Shown piece after piece: positions 42,826 to 58,830 of a stretch of 64,000 nt of DNA. A program made the position numbers and the translations under genes. Every line of letters starts with the position of its first letter. The stretch's first letter is position 1. Source of the DNA: Chromobacterium haemolyticum DSM 19808 (lineage in GTDB: Bacteria > Pseudomonadota > Gammaproteobacteria > Burkholderiales > Chromobacteriaceae); contig NZ_JONK01000013.1 of the NCBI RefSeq assembly GCF_000711885.1, forward strand, positions 1 through 64,000, read 5' to 3'. A model generated the notes under the pieces. It ran no database searches. It was not told the DNA's origin and saw only the letters and a program-made list of their open reading frames with translations.

Positions 42826-43037
42826 GAGGGAATCGACGGGTGGTGAAATCAGGCCAAGTGTAGCATCCGCGCCCCGGATCGGCCGCATGCGCCGCGCGCG
42901 GCAGATTATGCCGCGCCCCTGTTCATCGTGAGCGGCTAGCCCCTCAATTGGATACTTACAAAGCATATTGATGCCAATCAATACCAATATAAATCCAATG
43001 CCGCTAAAATATGACATTTATTTAACGAGGCGATGTC

Positions 43038-47590: not shown

Positions 47591-48607
47591 ATGGCTCTGC
47601 ACACATCCCTGCCCGAGCTGGTCTGCCCCGCCGGCAGCCTGCCGGCGCTCAAGGCCGCGGTGGACAACGGCGCCGACACCGTTTACCTGGGCCTGAAAAA
47701 CCAGACCAACGCCCGCAATTTCGCCGGGCTGAATTTCGACGACGCCAGCGCGCGCGAAGGCATCGCCTATGCGCATCGCCACGGTCGCAAAGTGCTGCTG
47801 GCGATCAACACCTTCGCCCAAGGCGCAGACGCCGGCCGCTGGCGCGCGGCGGTGGACCAAGGCGCGGCCCTGGGCGCCGACGCGCTGATCCTGGCCGACC
47901 TGGGCCTGATGGCCTACGCCGCAGAACGCCACCCTGAATTGCGCCTGCACATGTCGGTGCAGAGCTCGGCCACTAATTACGAAGCCATCAATCTGGCGCG
48001 CGACATGTTCGGCATCCGCCGCGCCGTGCTCCCTCGGGTGCTGACCCTGGATCAAGTGCGCCACGTGATCGAACACACCGACGTCGAAATCGAAGTCTTC
48101 GGCTTCGGCAGCCTGTGCGTGATGGTGGAAGGCCGCTGTCAGCTGTCCAGCTACGCCACCGGCGAATCGCCCAACACACACGGGGTGTGCTCGCCGGCGA
48201 AATTCGTGCGCTGGGAACCGGACGAGCGGCGCATGAACGCCCGCCTCAACCACATCCTGATCGACAGCTACCGCGACGACGAACCCGCCGGCTACCCCAC
48301 GCTGTGCAAGGGCCGCTTCCAGGTGCGCGACGAAACCTATTACGCGCTGGAAGAACCCACCAGCCTCAATGTGCTGGACATGCTGCCGCAAATCATCGCC
48401 AGCGGCGTGGCCGCCATCAAGGTGGAAGGCCGCCAGCGCAGCCCGGCCTACGTGGCTCAGGTGACGCGAGCGCTGCGCGAAGCGCTGGACGCCGCCGGCC
48501 GCGATGGTGCGCGCTTCCAGGCGCGCCCGGCCTGGCACCAGGCGCTGAACAAGGTGTCGGAAGGACAGCAACAGACGCTGGGCGCCTACAACCGGCCGTG
48601 GAAATGA
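47591..48607 (+). CDS. ubiU: Ubiquinone anaerobic hydroxylation protein UbiU (peptidase U32 family)
   Basis: The 338-residue U32-family protein starts MALHTSLPELVCPAGSLPALKAAVDNGADTVYLGLKNQTNARNF. It has the four-Cys cluster region FGFGSLCVMVEGRCQLSSYATGESPNTHGVCSPAKF, which binds a 4Fe-4S cluster. With UbiV it hydroxylates the ubiquinone ring without O2, using prephenate as the oxygen source. It is first in the tight ubiUVT cluster. Confidence 0.93.
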   Translation: MALHTSLPELVCPAGSLPALKAAVDNGADTVYLGLKNQTNARNFAGLNFDDASAREGIAYAHRHGRKVLLAINTFAQGADAGRWRAAVDQGAALGADALILADLGLMAYAAERHPELRLHMSVQSSATNYEAINLARDMFGIRRAVLPRVLTLDQVRHVIEHTDVEIEVFGFGSLCVMVEGRCQLSSYATGESPNTHGVCSPAKFVRWEPDERRMNARLNHILIDSYRDDEPAGYPTLCKGRFQVRDETYYALEEPTSLNVLDMLPQIIASGVAAIKVEGRQRSPAYVAQVTRALREALDAAGRDGARFQARPAWHQALNKVSEGQQQTLGAYNRPWK

Positions 48608-48632
48608 GCGCCGCCCCCATGGAAAACCGACA

Positions 48633-49562
48633 ATGACAACCCTCAATCTGCAATTGACGCTGGGGCCTGTGCTGTTCTTCTGGCCGCGCGACACCCTGCT
48701 GGACTTCTATGCCGCCGCCGCCGACTGGCCGCTGGACCGGATTTATCTGGGCGAAGTAGTGTGCTCGCGCCGCCAGCAGATGCGGCCGCAGGACTGGATC
48801 TCGCTAGCGCGCGACCTGGCCGCCGCCGGCAAACGCGTCACCCTCAGCTGTCAGGCGCTGCTGGAAAGCGAATCCGACCTGCGCCGCGCGCGCCAGCTGG
48901 CCGCCAACGGCGACATCGCGCTGGAAGCCAACGACCTGGGCGCGATCAAGCTGGCCCGCGAACACGGCCTGCCCTTCGTCGCCGGCCCGCACCTCAACAT
49001 CTACAACGCCGACACCCTGAAGCTGATCCGCGACTGGGGCGCCGAACGCTGGATGCCGCCGGTGGAAATGGACCGCGCCACCTTGGCTCAACTGCTGGCC
49101 CGCTACGCCGAGATCGGCGCGCCGATCGCCACCGAGTTGTTCGCCTGGGGCAAGCTACCGCTGGCGCTCTCCGCGCGTTGCTTCACCGCCCGTCATTACA
49201 ATCTGAGCAAGGACGACTGCCAGTTCCGCTGTCTGGAACACCCGGACGGACTGACCATGCGCACCCAGGACCAGCAGGACTTCCTCACCCTCAACGGCAT
49301 CCAGACCCTGTCCGCCGGCTGCCATAGCCTGCTGCCGCATCTGCGCGGCCTGTCCGCCATCGGCGTTGACGCCGTGCGCGTCAGCCCGCAATCTCGCGCC
49401 ACCGGCGACATCGTCGCCCTGTTCCGCCAAGCGCTGGACGGCGCCGATCCGGACGCGCTGCTGTCCGCCAGTAGCCGCCACGCCGACGCCGAACTGGTGG
49501 ACGGCTATTGGCGCGGCCAGGCCGGCAACCAAGCCATAGGAGCCTCCCATGCGCATTCCTGA
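48633..49562 (+). CDS. ubiV: Ubiquinone anaerobic hydroxylation protein UbiV
   Basis: The 309-residue U32-family partner of UbiU has IYLGEVVCSRRQQM near the N-terminus and the cluster residues in ARCFTARHYNLSKDDCQFRCLEHPDG. It forms the heterodimer with UbiU for O2-independent hydroxylation. It lies 25 bp after ubiU and overlaps ubiT by 14 bp. Confidence 0.93.
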   Translation: MTTLNLQLTLGPVLFFWPRDTLLDFYAAAADWPLDRIYLGEVVCSRRQQMRPQDWISLARDLAAAGKRVTLSCQALLESESDLRRARQLAANGDIALEANDLGAIKLAREHGLPFVAGPHLNIYNADTLKLIRDWGAERWMPPVEMDRATLAQLLARYAEIGAPIATELFAWGKLPLALSARCFTARHYNLSKDDCQFRCLEHPDGLTMRTQDQQDFLTLNGIQTLSAGCHSLLPHLRGLSAIGVDAVRVSPQSRATGDIVALFRQALDGADPDALLSASSRHADAELVDGYWRGQAGNQAIGASHAHS

Positions 49563-49983
49563 TCTAGCCCTGCCCTCCGCCGCCGCGGCACTGCTGTCCC
49601 GGCTGCCGGCCGCGCCGCCGGCCTGGCTACTGGCCGCCAGCCTCAATCAACTGACCCGGCGCGGCGTGCTGCCCGCGGACATGGCGCTGTTGACCGGCCG
49701 CCGCTTCGCCATCCGCGTGCTGGACGCCGGCCTCACCCTGCGCTTCCGCGCCGACGAGCAAGGCTTCCGCCGCGACCAGGAAGACCACGCGCCGGATTTG
49801 CAGCTCTCCGCCACGCTGGCCGACTTCGCCCGGATGATGCTGCGCGAGGAAGACCCGGACACGCTGTTTTTTCACCGCAAACTGCTGATTGAAGGCGACA
49901 CCGAGCTGGGGCTCATCGTCAAGAACCTGCTGGACAGCGTGGACTGGAGCGCCACGCCGCTGGGGCGCTTCATGGCCGTTTAA
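49549..49983 (+). CDS. ubiT: Ubiquinone anaerobic accessory protein UbiT (SCP2 domain)
   Basis: The 144-residue SCP2-like lipid-binding protein has the family pattern LTGRRFAIRVLDAGLTLRFRADEQGF and ARMMLREEDPDTLFFHRKLLIEGDTELGL. UbiT supports O2-independent ubiquinone synthesis, probably by binding polyprenylated intermediates. It starts inside the end of ubiV. A family 1 repeat begins 2 bp after its stop. Confidence 0.92.
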   Translation: MRIPDLALPSAAAALLSRLPAAPPAWLLAASLNQLTRRGVLPADMALLTGRRFAIRVLDAGLTLRFRADEQGFRRDQEDHAPDLQLSATLADFARMMLREEDPDTLFFHRKLLIEGDTELGLIVKNLLDSVDWSATPLGRFMAV

Positions 49984-53958: not shown

Positions 53959-53972
53959 TTGATCCGCGTCAA
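53959..53972 (+). promoter_or_regulatory. FNR/ANR-like binding site upstream of nrdD
   Basis: TTGATCCGCGTCAA matches the FNR consensus TTGATnnnnATCAA at nine of ten defined positions. It is centred about 86 bp before the nrdD start codon. A loose -10 candidate near 53999-54006 would put the site within several bp of the -41.5 position of class II FNR promoters. Confidence 0.65.
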
Positions 53973-54051: not shown

Positions 54052-55764
54052 ATGAGCACAGCTTCCGCGCCCACCGCCATGGTGGATGCCATCTCCGCGA
54101 TCGACGAATATCTGGACCGGGCCGACTGGCGGGTCAACGCCAACGCTAACCAGGGCTACAGCCTGGGCGGCCTGATCCTCAACATCGCCGGCAAGCTCAC
54201 CGCCAATTACTGGCTGGAGCGGGTGCTGGCGCCGGAAGTTGCCATGGCCCACCGTCAGGGGGATCTGCACATCCACGATCTGGACATGCTGTCAGGCTAC
54301 TGCGCCGGGTGGTCGCTGCGCACCCTGTTGCAAAATGGCTTCAACGGCATTCCCGGCAAGGTGGAATCCGCGCCGCCGCGCCATCTGTCTTCCGCCTGCG
54401 GCCAAATCGTCAACTTCCTCGGCACCCTTCAAAACGAGTGGGCCGGCGCCCAGGCGTTTAGTTCCTTCGACACCTACCTGGCCCCCTTCGTCAAAAAAGA
54501 CGGGCTGAGCTACGCCGACGTGCGCCAGTGCGTCCAGGAACTGATCTACAACCTCAACGTGCCCAGCCGCTGGGGCACCCAAACCCCGTTCACCAACCTG
54601 ACCTTCGACTGGACCTGCCCGGACGACATCGCCGAGCAGATTCCGGTGCTGGGTGGAGAGGAGATGCCGTTCCGCTACGGCGATTGCGCACGCGAAATGG
54701 CGATGATCAACCGCGCCTACATCGAAGTGATGCTGGCCGGCGACGCCAAGGGGCGCTCCTTCACCTTCCCCATCCCCACCTACAACATCACCCGCGACTT
54801 CGACTGGCACGGCGAGAATACCGACCTCTTGTTCGAAATGACCGCCAAATACGGCCTGCCCTATTTCCAGAACTTCGTGAACTCCGACCTGGAGCCGCAG
54901 ATGGTGCGCAGTATGTGCTGCCGGCTGCAACTGGACTTGCGGGAACTGCTCAAACGCGGCAACGGCTTGTTCGGCAGCGCCGAGCAAACCGGATCCGTCG
55001 GCGTGATCACCATCAACTGCGCGCGTCTGGGCCACCGCTTCGCCGGCGACTACGCCGCGCTGCTGGCCGAAACCGACCGCTTGCTAGAGTTGTCCCGCGA
55101 CGCCTTGGAGAAAAAGCGCAGCGAAGTGCAAGCGCGCATCGACGACGGCCTCTATCCATACACCCGTCACTTCCTGGGCTCGCTGCGCAATCATTTCAGC
55201 ACCATAGGCGTCAACGGCATCAATGAAATGATCCGCAACTTCAGCGCCGATCGCATCGACATCACCAGCGACGAGGGCCACCAGCTGGCCTGCGACTACT
55301 TGGACCACATCCGCCAGCGCATGGTCGAGTTCCAGGAAAGCACCGGCCATCTGTACAACCTGGAAGCCACCCCGGCGGAAGGCACCACCTACCGCTTCGC
55401 CAAGGAAGACCGCAAACGCTATCCCGGCATCCTGCAAGCCGGCAGCGACGCTCATCCTTATTACACCAACTCCAGCCAATTGCCGGTGGGCTTCACCGAC
55501 GACCCGTTCGAAGCCCTGCAACGCCAGGAGCTGCTGCAACGCAAATACACCGGCGGCACCGTGCTGCACCTTTATATGACCGAGGCGGTCAGCAGCGCCG
55601 ACGCCTGCCGCGAACTGGTGCGGCGCGCGCTGTCCCGCTTCCGCCTGCCTTATATCACGGTGACCCCCACCTTCTCGATCTGCCCCAAGCACGGTTATCT
55701 GTCCGGCCATCACGAATTCTGCCCGCGCTGCGACGCGGAACTGCTGGCGCGCCAGTCTTCATAA
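54052..55764 (+). CDS. nrdD: Anaerobic ribonucleoside-triphosphate reductase NrdD, large part without the glycyl-radical loop
   Basis: The 570-residue class III reductase has an active-site Cys near residue 84 (LSGYCAGW), the MCC motif at 288-290 and a C-terminal zinc site (C544, H547, C557, C560 in ICPKHGYL ... FCPRCD). It reduces ribonucleoside triphosphates without oxygen. The protein stops at TAA (55762-55764) just after the zinc site, so it lacks the RVxGY glycyl-radical loop needed for catalysis. That loop is encoded in the next ORF, in the same frame. An FNR-like site lies upstream. Confidence 0.93.
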   Translation: MSTASAPTAMVDAISAIDEYLDRADWRVNANANQGYSLGGLILNIAGKLTANYWLERVLAPEVAMAHRQGDLHIHDLDMLSGYCAGWSLRTLLQNGFNGIPGKVESAPPRHLSSACGQIVNFLGTLQNEWAGAQAFSSFDTYLAPFVKKDGLSYADVRQCVQELIYNLNVPSRWGTQTPFTNLTFDWTCPDDIAEQIPVLGGEEMPFRYGDCAREMAMINRAYIEVMLAGDAKGRSFTFPIPTYNITRDFDWHGENTDLLFEMTAKYGLPYFQNFVNSDLEPQMVRSMCCRLQLDLRELLKRGNGLFGSAEQTGSVGVITINCARLGHRFAGDYAALLAETDRLLELSRDALEKKRSEVQARIDDGLYPYTRHFLGSLRNHFSTIGVNGINEMIRNFSADRIDITSDEGHQLACDYLDHIRQRMVEFQESTGHLYNLEATPAEGTTYRFAKEDRKRYPGILQAGSDAHPYYTNSSQLPVGFTDDPFEALQRQELLQRKYTGGTVLHLYMTEAVSSADACRELVRRALSRFRLPYITVTPTFSICPKHGYLSGHHEFCPRCDAELLARQSS

Positions 55765-55788
55765 GCCCTGTTAAGAAAGGAAAAGCAC

Positions 55789-55968
55789 ATGACTCCTCCC
55801 ACCCGCCTCCCCGGCCAAGACGCCGCTCCCCTCAATGACGAGCAACGCACCCGCTGCGAAATCTGGACCCGCGTGATGGGCTATCACCGCCCGGTGCAGT
55901 CCTTCAATATCGGCAAGCGAGGAGAATTCGACGAACGGGTCTGCTTCAGTGAAGATGCTGCCCGCTGA
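55789..55968 (+). CDS. Separate glycyl-radical domain of the anaerobic ribonucleotide reductase
   Basis: The 59-residue ORF contains TRCEIWTRVMGYHRPVQSFN and GKRGEFDERVCF, the C-terminal glycyl-radical segment of NrdD with the radical Gly at residue 31 (RVMGY). It starts with ATG 24 bp after the nrdD TAA stop, with a ribosome binding site (AAGGA) placed for this start. It is in the same reading frame as nrdD: without the TAA the eight intervening codons would read through. It overlaps nrdG at its 3' end. It is too short to be picked up by ordinary gene calling. Confidence 0.85.
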   Translation: MTPPTRLPGQDAAPLNDEQRTRCEIWTRVMGYHRPVQSFNIGKRGEFDERVCFSEDAAR

Positions 55969-56656
55969 CCCCGCAGCAGCCCGCATCGGCGGGCTCACGC
56001 CATTCTCCAGCTGCGACTGGCCAGGCAAGTTATGCGCGGTGGTCTTCATCGCCGGCTGCCCCTGGCGCTGCGGCTATTGCCACAACCCGCACCTGCTGCA
56101 ACGCCGGAACGGCGAAACCCGCTGGCCGGAGATTCTACGCTGGCTGCAAAGCCGGGTCGGCCTGCTAGACGGCGTGGTGTTCTCCGGCGGCGAACCGCTG
56201 CAGGAGCCGGCGTTGCCGGCTCTGCTGGAACAAACCCGCGCGCTGGGCTTCGCCACCGGCCTCCACACCGGCGGCGCTTATCCACAGCGCCTGCAGCGGG
56301 TTCTGCCCTTTCTCGATTGGGTGGGCCTGGACATCAAGACCGATTTTGGCGCCTACCCGGCACTGACCAGCCTGTCGCGCAGCGGCGAGCAAGCAGAAGC
56401 CGCGCTACTCTGTCTGTTGCAAAACAACATCAATTTTGAATGTCGCAGCAGCATACATCCTCACTGGCACAGTGAGGTCCAACTGACGGCGCTGGCACGG
56501 CGGCTGGCGGCGCTGGGCGTCGCCCATTATCACTGGCAGCGCCTTCGCCCGCCCCCATCCGCCGCGTTTCCCCCCGCCCCCGCCGGCTGGCCCGCGCCGG
56601 AACTGGTAGAAGAGATCGCGCCTTTGTTCCAGCGCTTCAGTTATCGGGAACACTGA
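55955..56656 (+). CDS. nrdG: Anaerobic ribonucleotide reductase activase NrdG (radical SAM)
   Basis: The 233-residue radical SAM protein has the cluster motif CPWRCGYC (C35, C39, C42) after GGLTPFSSCDWPGKLCAVVFIAGC. Later motifs are FSGGEPLQEP and LHTGGAYPQRL. It generates the glycyl radical in NrdD using SAM and a 4Fe-4S cluster. Its start overlaps the separate glycyl-radical ORF by 14 bp, so all three reductase genes are coupled. A GTG at 55949 would add two residues. Confidence 0.92.
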   Translation: MLPADPAAARIGGLTPFSSCDWPGKLCAVVFIAGCPWRCGYCHNPHLLQRRNGETRWPEILRWLQSRVGLLDGVVFSGGEPLQEPALPALLEQTRALGFATGLHTGGAYPQRLQRVLPFLDWVGLDIKTDFGAYPALTSLSRSGEQAEAALLCLLQNNINFECRSSIHPHWHSEVQLTALARRLAALGVAHYHWQRLRPPPSAAFPPAPAGWPAPELVEEIAPLFQRFSYREH

Positions 56657-56810: not shown

Positions 56811-56934
56811 GTCGGCGACGAATGCAACAGTCGCTGTTCTTGGCACCAGAACAAGGAGTTAGCGCTTCCCATGCCTTTTGCATGTGGGCTACTATCCAGC
56901 AGCGTAAAACCACAAGATCAAGAAAGATTTGCTC

Positions 56935-57732
56935 ATGGTCATCTCAAATTCCGCGATAGCACGGCCGCTGCCCAGCGGTTTGTCCGCGAGTCAGCAATGG
57001 ACATTGCTGGAATGGATTCACCTTGCCGGACAAATCGAAACCGAAGCCGAGCTCAGGGCGTTTCTGGACATGTTGCTCAGCCAGGCGCCCTCCGAACACA
57101 TGGTGCTGGCGCTGGGTCGCATCAACCAGCACCAGCAGATTCAGCGGCTGGAGCGGGTCTTGAATGTCAGCTATCCCACGGAATGGCTGAAGCATTACAT
57201 GGAGGAAAACTACGCCCAGCACGATCCCATTCTGAAGATCCATCTGGGCAGCGGCCCGGTACAATGGCAAGAACGCTTTAGCCGCGCCAAGGGTAAGGAA
57301 GAACGCAAGTTCATTGCCGAGGCCGCCACCGTTGGGCTGGAGAGCGGCGTCACCTTCAGCGCCGCTTCCAAACGCAATAATCTGGGCTGCATTTTCTCCG
57401 TCAGCGGTAAAGACGCCAGCTCCGATCCTAATCTGGTAGCCATGCTGGAATGTCTGACTCCCCACTTGCACCAAGCCGCTGTCCGCATTGCCAATCTGGC
57501 CCCAGCCACTCCCAGTTCCATGCCGCTATCGCAGCGCGAATACGATATTTTCCACTGGATGAGCCGCGGCAAGACTAATTGGGAAATCGCCACCATTCTG
57601 GACATCAGCGAACGTACTGTGAAATTCCACGTCGCCAACGTCATCCGCAAGCTGAATGCCAACAACCGCACTCACGCCATTGTGCTAGGCATGCACTTGT
57701 TGCCACCGCCAGGACTGCAAGTCAGCGATTAG
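56935..57732 (+). CDS. cviR: LuxR-type quorum-sensing receptor CviR
   Basis: The 265-residue LuxR-family protein has an N-terminal acyl-homoserine-lactone domain (residues about 20-170) and a C-terminal GerE helix-turn-helix (LSQREYDIFHWMSRGKTNWEIATILDISERTVKFHVANVIRKL). Residues known to line the CviR pocket are at the same numbers: Y80, W84, D97 and S155. It binds the autoinducer and activates target genes at lux boxes, including probably cviI. The ATG at 56935 matches the CviR start; a TTG six bases earlier is less likely. It is convergent with cviI. Confidence 0.95.
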   Translation: MVISNSAIARPLPSGLSASQQWTLLEWIHLAGQIETEAELRAFLDMLLSQAPSEHMVLALGRINQHQQIQRLERVLNVSYPTEWLKHYMEENYAQHDPILKIHLGSGPVQWQERFSRAKGKEERKFIAEAATVGLESGVTFSAASKRNNLGCIFSVSGKDASSDPNLVAMLECLTPHLHQAAVRIANLAPATPSSMPLSQREYDIFHWMSRGKTNWEIATILDISERTVKFHVANVIRKLNANNRTHAIVLGMHLLPPPGLQVSD

Positions 57733-57751
57733 CTGAGAGCTGCCGGCCAGC

Positions 57752-58417
57752 TTAAGCCCACGCGGGAGCATGTGCATGGTCGTATTCCACCCAGGAACGG
57801 ACGCACTCTCTTGGTGCCGTGACTTCTCGTCGCAGCGACTTGACGAACTCCGGATCAGCCTGCTCCCAGTCAAAGCAGCCCGCCACCGACATCACTCCGC
57901 CGTCTAGCGGCCGCGGGACACCCACCGGCAGTATTGGAAAGCCCATCCGGGACAAGTGCCGATAAAACGACGGCTCCACCACGAAATACAACCAACGCAC
58001 TTCATTGGCGCGCGACCACTCCCATAAGCTGAGATACAACAAGCGCGCAATCGCTTTCGTCTCACGGCTGGAAATCGTCTTACCCACTGCGAAGCGAGTG
58101 ATTTCCCCGCATCCCTCCCCTTTGCGGATTCGTTCTCCCGGCGCCAGCAAACGGGCAAATTCCCGCTCAATCATGAAAGGCTGATCACCGGGCGTGAAAC
58201 GGGCCGATCCCACCACTTGATTCTGAGCAATCACCGCAAGATTGTCGGAGAAGGCATCATAATCATCCAGATCCAGGCCGTCCGGCCTAATGGGCACCCA
58301 CCTCAGTTGCTCACGAAATATTTGGTGGCGAAACTTTAGCAAATCGACTTCATGAGAAGTTGCATTGACCTTCTCCATCAGCAAACCGCCCAACTCCAGT
58401 GGAAAGAAATGCGCCAT
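57752..58417 (-). CDS. cviI: Acyl-homoserine-lactone synthase CviI
   Basis: The 221-residue LuxI-family enzyme has the conserved N-terminal RHQIFREQLRWV, LDDYDAFSDNL, VVGSARF, EITRFAV and the C-terminal fatty-acyl region. It makes an acyl-homoserine lactone from SAM and an acyl-ACP; chain length cannot be read from sequence. The ATG at 58417 has a GGAG ribosome binding site 8 nt upstream and is preferred to the ATG at 58438. It ends 19 bp from cviR, in convergent orientation. A lux box lies about 65 bp upstream. Confidence 0.95.
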   Translation of the reverse strand: MAHFFPLELGGLLMEKVNATSHEVDLLKFRHQIFREQLRWVPIRPDGLDLDDYDAFSDNLAVIAQNQVVGSARFTPGDQPFMIEREFARLLAPGERIRKGEGCGEITRFAVGKTISSRETKAIARLLYLSLWEWSRANEVRWLYFVVEPSFYRHLSRMGFPILPVGVPRPLDGGVMSVAGCFDWEQADPEFVKSLRREVTAPRECVRSWVEYDHAHAPAWA

Positions 58418-58830
58418 TTTGTTTTCTCCAATCATCACGTTACTGGCACGGGCACTGTAAGAGCTGGGCTGAAGTGGGAAATCTGACCAAATGGACAGGA
58501 GTCGATTTTTTGAAATGTGCTAAAGCGAGGAAAAACAGAGAGTTCTTCCCCTGGATGACACATAGCCTCCCCAGTTTTATTCGCTCATCTCACAAATACC
58601 ATTGGCATTGCATCTTGCACAATAATGGCTTAACTAAAAATATCCTCACTAAAATCAAAAGTTTGCACACAGCTCCAAGTCAGAGCAACTACACAAACCA
58701 TTGATGCATCAACCTTTTTCTTTAGTAAAAAAGCGAGCTGTCCTTAGTTTTTTTGCCCTAGAGCAAAGACTCTTAACCCTGCCGCGCCTACGATTGCCTA
58801 GTTATTCACCCGTACCCGCATCGTTGCTAA
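58418..58830. other. A/T-rich non-coding region upstream of cviI
   Basis: This 413-bp divergent gap between cviI and the nitronate monooxygenase-like gene is clearly lower in GC than its surroundings. It holds the lux box at 58483-58498 and a minus-strand TACAGT -10 candidate at 58454-58459. Short open frames here have no coding character. I see no strong promoter or ribosome binding site for the downstream gene. Confidence 0.6.
58483..58498 (-). promoter_or_regulatory. Lux box, predicted CviR binding site upstream of cviI
   Basis: CTGACCAAATGGACAG matches the symmetric lux-box pattern CTGnCC-n4-GGnCAG. With the -10 candidate TACAGT at 58459-58454 (minus strand), the box is centred near -43, the class II position for LuxR-type activators. 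This predicts a positive feedback loop of CviR on cviI. Confidence 0.8.

Follow-up and report, generated by a model that had tools for sequence, protein, structure and literature searches.

The class III ribonucleotide reductases (RNRs) that have been described, for example those of Escherichia coli, T4, Thermotoga maritima (4coi, 4u3e) and Prevotella copri (the 8p23 series), share a barrel, a finger-loop cysteine, a zinc site, an NrdG partner and a radical loop of the RVxGY type. In these known NrdD proteins the loop is the protein's own C-terminus. The NrdD domain in which NrdG generates the glycyl radical flips out of the protein (PMC12662201), and it is at the radical glycine that class III reductases are cut by oxygen (PMC3019208). 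A different arrangement is found in Chromobacterium haemolyticum DSM 19808, on the stretch of 64,000 nucleotides (nt) analyzed here (contig NZ_JONK01000013.1, positions 1 to 64,000 of the forward strand; hereafter the window). There the loop is encoded as a separate 59-residue protein, in an open reading frame (ORF) between nrdD and nrdG. Very probably nrdD and this ORF encode a class III reductase that is naturally split into two subunits, the radical one acting in trans once NrdG has activated it.

Parts of this arrangement resemble known systems. NrdJa/NrdJb of Pseudomonas aeruginosa is likewise one RNR spread over two genes of one operon in the Proteobacteria, and both NrdJ parts are needed (PMC4520616). 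That enzyme differs in being class II and B12-dependent, and its small part bears a cysteine redox tail rather than the radical site. Split NrdJ was described in a 2015 paper as the sole split RNR found in a non-viral organism. YfiD/GrcA and Y06I of T4, the latter a phage example, are small free copies of a glycyl-radical C-terminus that are charged by the activase and complete a truncated enzyme (PMC8683613). YfiD/GrcA serve pyruvate formate-lyase (PFL) and rescue the oxygen-cleaved enzyme, whereas the loop described here is of the NrdD type and would be permanently required in the split bacteria. As of 2021 only the PFL spare parts had been validated, and others for glycyl radical enzymes were regarded as possible (PMC8683613). 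Phage RNR genes also occur in pieces, such as the nrdA/nrdD of Aeh1 and phiAS4, but there the interruptions are mobile introns, inteins, endonucleases or unexplained breaks in single phages, as opposed to a conserved loop-only gene (PMC3653736). The same 2013 phage survey mentions in passing, citing others, split RNR genes in some cellular organisms.

Traces of the small gene can be found in existing annotation and genetics. On plasmids of Cupriavidus and Azospira, and on further plasmids, the small ORF is annotated in RefSeq as nrdD, by profile only. PHROG 4132 includes viral copies; no split is stated in the tables for it or for the short nrdD of RefSeq. On plasmid pHG1 of Cupriavidus necator, a loop-less NrdD of 676 residues (76.19 kDa, computed) is followed by a loop protein of 66 residues and then by nrdG. 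In this organism nrdDG has been reported essential for complete denitrification (PMC2864759), and with nrdD split there, these genetics are consistent with a two-part enzyme. The same paper gives NrdDG of C. metallidurans as Rmet_5137 and Rmet_5139, with one number skipped, and we infer that the skipped gene encodes the loop protein. No description of a conserved split class III reductase of bacteria was found among the titles and abstract openings of the matches listed, with subscription papers largely outside this search; priority for the finding is not proven.

The genes of the locus all lie on the + strand. The first, nrdD (54052-55764), encodes a class III catalytic subunit of 570 residues with barrel and zinc site, without an ATP-cone and without a glycyl-radical loop. 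Its finger loop, MCCRL (residues 288-292; 54913-54927), holds the candidate thiyl-radical cysteine(s), a role which we take from homology, and is found in every full-length row of the NrdD alignment, fused and split alike. The site CPKHGY...CPRC (55681-55731), which presumably binds zinc as in its homologues, lies at the extreme end of NrdD and occurs in split as well as fused relatives. The original prediction, made from the letters of the window, had NrdD ending at a TAA right after this site, and the stop is there (55762-55764). Twenty-four nt past it, an ATG with its own ribosome-binding site (AAGGA, 55777-55781, 7 nt ahead) opens the small ORF (55789-55968), just as had been noted. On profile match and conservation its 59-residue product, with the motif CEIWTRVMGYHRPV, is a putative stand-alone glycyl-radical subunit. 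The RVMGY loop (55870-55884; the codon of Gly31 is 55879-55881) does not vary in any of the 34 small proteins aligned. The predicted overlap with nrdG holds as well, and amounts to 20 nt; nrdG (55949-56656, with a GTG start at 55949) encodes an NrdG2-type radical S-adenosylmethionine activase of 235 residues (TIGR02495, 165.2 bits; cut-off 131.15). The two ORFs do share a frame in the window, as had also been noted, although this placement carries no significance, other species using other frames.

Profile matches divide one protein family between the two ORFs. NrdD matches NF006126 at positions 95-656 of 684 (1012.6 bits; cut-off 548) and PF13597 at 2-528 (570.7 bits). The small ORF matches the end of the profile that NrdD lacks, PF13597 at 532-562 (30.8 bits; cut-off 26.2). 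Against NF006126 it scores 22.3 bits (649-682), far under the whole-protein cut-off, as expected of a fragment. A barrel, a zinc-site sequence, a radical loop and an nrdG partner, the features of a class III RNR, are all encoded in the system, with the loop on a separate ORF rather than on the NrdD polypeptide. The NrdD alignment begins at NF006126 position 95, without the N-terminal ATP-cone, and the three ATP-cone matches in the genome all lie away from this nrdD. With E up to 1 as the limit, the matches listed for the small proteins were to NrdD families and phrog_4132, with none to PFL or GrcA.

Conservation of the small protein is strong. R20, C23, E24, W26, RVMGY, RP, N40, GK, E46, R50 and F53 are invariant in the alignment of 34 sequences. 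C23 (55855-55857) stands eight residues ahead of the radical glycine. All 76 split small proteins examined have this cysteine, and the fused relatives L157, L159, L160 and L173 lack it; a redox or metal role is possible. A coincidental short ORF is ruled out by the Pfam score together with this conservation.

Two other roles for the small protein have to be weighed at this point. The radical could reside within NrdD, on a glycine such as that of the HGY by the zinc site, with the small protein a regulator or a leftover. The sequence HGYL[SA]G does slightly resemble RVxGYLG, and a 1999 report on C. necator reportedly described a 76.2-kDa NrdD and discussed an oxygen-labile C-terminal glycine. 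However, fused relatives carry both the HGY of the zinc site and RVMGY, the closing columns of PF13597 and TIGR02487, where the radical loop is found, align with the small ORF and not with HGY, and the conservation is too strong for a leftover; we consider this explanation improbable. Equally improbable is that the small protein serves only as a spare part, rescuing an oxygen-cleaved full-length NrdD in the manner of YfiD. Its architecture is that of a GrcA-type stand-alone radical domain, and both the small protein and the viral orphan loops described below are, like YfiD, stand-alone copies of a radical C-terminus; such a role would suit the orphans. The full-length partner to be rescued is what the C. 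haemolyticum genome does not show: a genome search gave a single NrdD match, and it ends at the zinc site, which would make the small protein there an obligatory subunit. The likeness to YfiD/GrcA drawn in the original prediction is apt, and more so for the viral orphans.

The split is constant within the genus wherever this NrdD occurs. The small protein was found in 5 of 19 genus genomes, exactly those with this NrdD type (96-100% identity), and all five are split. The nrdD stop of the window recurs in the assembly sequences of the four others at the same place, as TAA in four of the five genomes and as TGA in G004. Among the remaining 14 genomes, 13 carry a continuous NrdD that is only distantly related (about 25% identity) and has RRVCGYL at its end; one gave no match. 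Relative to nrdD the small ORF is in frame 0 in G000, G001 and G005, frame 1 in G004 and frame 2 in G012; since the frame varies in this way, the spacer drifts by indels. Over the first 52 codons of the small ORF, 12 synonymous and 5 non-synonymous differences separate the window from G004, and 14 and 3, respectively, separate G005 from G004.

The same organization is found in a wide range of relatives. A scan of genome contigs for NrdD gave at least 589 relatives, and the best 80 loci by similarity were examined, a set that leans to similar proteins; one (L025) is genus genome G001 and the other 79 lie outside the genus. Seventy of the 80 are split, 7 are fused, 2 had no loop found and 1 is cut by a contig end. 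One of the two loop-less loci had only 138 nt of contig left after nrdD. All 70 small ORFs start with ATG, at a median of 29 nt from nrdD (range -41 to 298). A Shine-Dalgarno match of at least 5 nt precedes 65 of 70 of these starts versus 119 of 1877 ATGs inside nrdD, a contrast that is somewhat inflated because the starts were picked by Shine-Dalgarno match among in-frame candidates. Downstream, nrdG was detected in 69 of the 70 split loci, its projected start overlapping the small ORF in 42, lying within 188 nt in 25 and farther away in 2. One RNR on two co-operonic genes is thus found across species, the operon being judged from spacing. The frames of the small ORFs relative to nrdD (27, 24 and 19 in frames 0, 1 and 2) are indistinguishable from uniform, which argues against read-through or frameshifting, since either would favor one frame.

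A second sample was drawn with a profile of the small protein, which matches 36 of 369 genomes of the class and 18 of 398 of the phylum, six genomes being in both. From 47 of these genomes, that of C. haemolyticum DSM 19808 excluded, 48 regions were fetched, some of them near-copies of loci in the 80-locus set. Thirty-four are split, 8 fused, 4 without NrdD by tblastn, 1 off the contig and 1 missed by the motif pattern. The fused regions have only 24-71% identity to the window NrdD, so most of them are other NrdD types. The region missed by the pattern (G579, L174), left outside the split count, shows by eye a short ORF starting MTAETAQRTPCEVF after the NrdD stop, with two TAA codons in frame. 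The small-protein profile also matches 24 of 99 genomes sampled from the genus of Pseudomonas chlororaphis; the frames holding the 23 strong matches have 65-360 codons each, which is not enough for a fused NrdD. The Actinomycetota may differ: 54 of 296 sampled genomes match, with 51 of 55 matches in frames of at least 591 codons, a hint of fusion, and the Actinomycetota loci checked (L082, L089 and L103) are fused. Frame length alone is no proof of fusion, since L141 (773 codons) and L147 (658 codons) have long open frames and are nonetheless split, the frame of the small ORF running open across nrdD.

In one genome the two parts are not even neighbors. G679 encodes a 681-residue NrdD that ends at the zinc site (C4:22496-24541), and its radical protein, an 84-codon ORF, is found with nrdG at C4:32943-33897, about 9 kb from nrdD and upstream of it. 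The 13.2 kb that were read contain no further loop motif, and in this genome the loop must act in trans.

To trace the history of the split, a FastTree tree was built from 108 split and 15 fused NrdD proteins, 123 in all. The tree needs two changes between split and fused, of which the starred branches force only one, several inner branches being weak; shuffled labels need a mean of 14.3, and 0 of 500 shuffles were as low. The outer branches are fused, and a nested fused group consists of Actinomycetota, Maricaulis, a Desulfovibrio metagenome-assembled genome (MAG) and a Proteobacteria MAG. The history is most simply read as one old split and one re-fusion, and the split looks like a lineage trait. 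As a gene structure, the two-part class III reductase is real, old and widespread.

With this distribution the two remaining explanations can be set aside. A single full-length protein might be produced by stop read-through or programmed frameshifting, and the shared frame and 24-nt distance in the window, as well as the 27 of 70 loci in frame 0, would suit such a process. The other two frames are jointly commoner, though, the gaps run from overlap to 298 nt, the stop may be TAA, TAG or TGA, indels in the genus spacer give all three frames, and the parts in G679 are about 9 kb apart in reversed order; read-through and frameshifting are rejected on distribution and frames as very improbable. 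Least credible of all, and rejected on distribution, is that nrdD was continuous until a recent nonsense mutation, or reads as interrupted through a sequencing error, and that the downstream ORF is debris. The common frame in the window and a small ORF broken near its start in G012 might recall such an event, which cannot account for a conserved small ORF with its own Shine-Dalgarno sequence, split off in any frame in all five genus genomes and 70 of 80 loci. The original prediction had favored a two-part enzyme over a recent nonsense change, and for gene structure the genus, the 70 loci, the separation in G679 and the synonymous bias bear it out. It had also proposed a search of the genus, where continuous genes in close relatives and a stop confined to this strain would have told against it; the relatives that share this NrdD are split.

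A predicted structure is also compatible with a split reductase. An AlphaFold2 model was made of the window nrdD and the small ORF read through the stop as one chain, from an alignment with trimmed small-protein rows. The mean predicted local distance difference test score (pLDDT) is 86.8, the blocks of the loop scoring 86-91 except for the last, and the best solved match of the model is NrdD of P. copri (8p2s, chain B). The predicted fold shows compatibility, and compatibility only, with a loop seated in the NrdD barrel. The nearest solved sequences to NrdD are those of T. maritima, P. copri, T4 and one further NrdD; the small-protein profile reaches the solved T. maritima NrdD at E 0.3 only, so the link to solved structures rests on barrel and fold.

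The split reductase would be expected to work as follows. Two subunits would be translated separately from one operon with nrdG: NrdD, 570 residues with the barrel, the catalytic cysteine and the zinc site, and the free 59-residue protein bearing the glycyl-radical loop. NrdG would install the radical on the glycine of the small subunit, presumably Gly31, and the small protein may be free or bound at that step. Once charged, it would dock into the NrdD barrel beside the finger-loop cysteine and nucleotide reduction would start. Since the glycyl radical is the point at which oxygen cuts a class III reductase, the split may turn the perishable part into a cheap, replaceable cartridge while the large subunit is spared. 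If the radical glycine is on the 59-residue subunit, loss to oxygen would mean replacement of a small protein. This would change the description of anaerobic DNA synthesis for many denitrifying and facultative bacteria, and it would account for the NrdD of such species seeming to lack a radical site.

Several observations weigh against a working two-subunit enzyme. The C. haemolyticum genome also holds two class I/II reductase matches, so the class III enzyme may be dispensable. The docking in the model is nearly built in, because the chains were tethered by a nonexistent linker and the alignment contained fused homologues. The small ORF of G012 lacks an in-frame start, because a short C run there differs in length by one base (L009, G012:C1 near 647811); this may be a fresh loss of the small protein or a sequence error, and the ORF is intact in the other four genus genomes with this NrdD. 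The split locus L090 is the one without a detected nrdG. In Alphaproteobacteria bacterium PG1894_49 (L104) the zinc site is the end of NrdD, and no radical loop was found in the 2976 nt 3' of nrdD; decay or a distant loop gene is possible. The frames in the second sample are non-uniform (3, 14 and 17 of the 34 split regions), with frame 0 rare. A TAG lies inside the matched stretch in 2 of the 23 strong matches of the Pseudomonas genus. Finally, oxygen cleavage at a glycine of NrdD itself would count against a radical on the small subunit if it was shown in the 1999 C. necator report.

Loop genes related to the small protein also occur alone, on viral contigs. Scanning IMG/VR for the small protein yielded 175 relatives; the 80 loci retained (L189-L268) include several near-copies of each other. 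In 74 the loop has its own frame (44 to 362 codons), 1 is split beside NrdD and 5 were missed by the motif pattern. In the flanks fetched for the 74 loci, up to 4 kb, tblastn detected neither NrdD nor NrdG. Forty of the 80 contigs, picked mainly for length and possibly fragments or proviruses, were scanned whole. Thirty-eight of these match PF13597 in its last ~30 columns only, two of them just below the cut-off, and the same 38 have no TIGR02495 match, a profile found in 14 of 14 control genomes. The other two, with NrdD, also give weak TIGR02495 matches. The uncorrected non-synonymous/synonymous ratio is 0.19 over 159 pairs, which are not independent.

When 20 ORFs neighboring the orphans on 11 viral contigs were examined, 9 contigs (one weakly) gave named phage functions, which include major head protein, terminase, tail fiber and baseplate, tape measure, endolysin, integrase, virion protein and replication proteins; L204 and L266 gave no telling phage function among the ORFs examined. 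Matches to phrog_4132, which is listed as of unknown function, came from six small proteins, of which five are viral. A cultured-phage collection (50,697 records) gave almost nothing, with one weak match to the window small protein and two to a prophage-like copy, and the phage claim therefore rests on the IMG/VR contigs. An orphan has been found within a bacterial genome as well: G285 carries an extra 62-residue radical-loop gene (L132, G285:C3:17100-21100) besides its own split NrdD and loop. The neighboring ORFs of L132 resemble by eye what we take to be SSB and RecT. Viral NrdD was in addition matched in two pieces, as if interrupted by an insertion, on L211 (1680-3773; about 370 nt apart) and on the L244 contig (about 2 kb apart), and an orphan loop lies separately on the latter contig, at a distance of about 40 kb.

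By analogy the viral orphans look like candidate YfiD-type spare parts for class III reductase. We suggest tentatively, and with less than even confidence, that the small protein is a widespread detachable radical cartridge that many phages of anaerobic or facultative hosts carry alone; host NrdG would charge it and it would dock into host NrdD, either split or oxygen-cleaved, so that synthesis of deoxynucleoside triphosphates continues. If true, PFL would be joined for the first time by another glycyl radical enzyme with a spare-part system. The split enzyme and the viral orphans make spare parts beyond PFL directly testable.

A few other features of the window deserve mention. Upstream of nrdD, 80 nt 5' of the gene on the + strand, is a box TTGATCCGCGTCAA (53959-53972) that we take to be FNR/ANR/DNR-like, a candidate for anaerobic induction. 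The pattern has 3 matches in the window versus 0.07 expected, two of which are both strands of one other site, the palindrome TTGATGCCAATCAA at 42968-42981. Another anaerobic function is nearby, ubiU, ubiV and ubiT for oxygen-independent ubiquinone synthesis (47591-49983), 4-6 kb 5' of nrdD. Immediately 3' of nrdG is a quorum-sensing pair, a LuxR-type regulator and an acyl-homoserine-lactone synthase (56929-58438).

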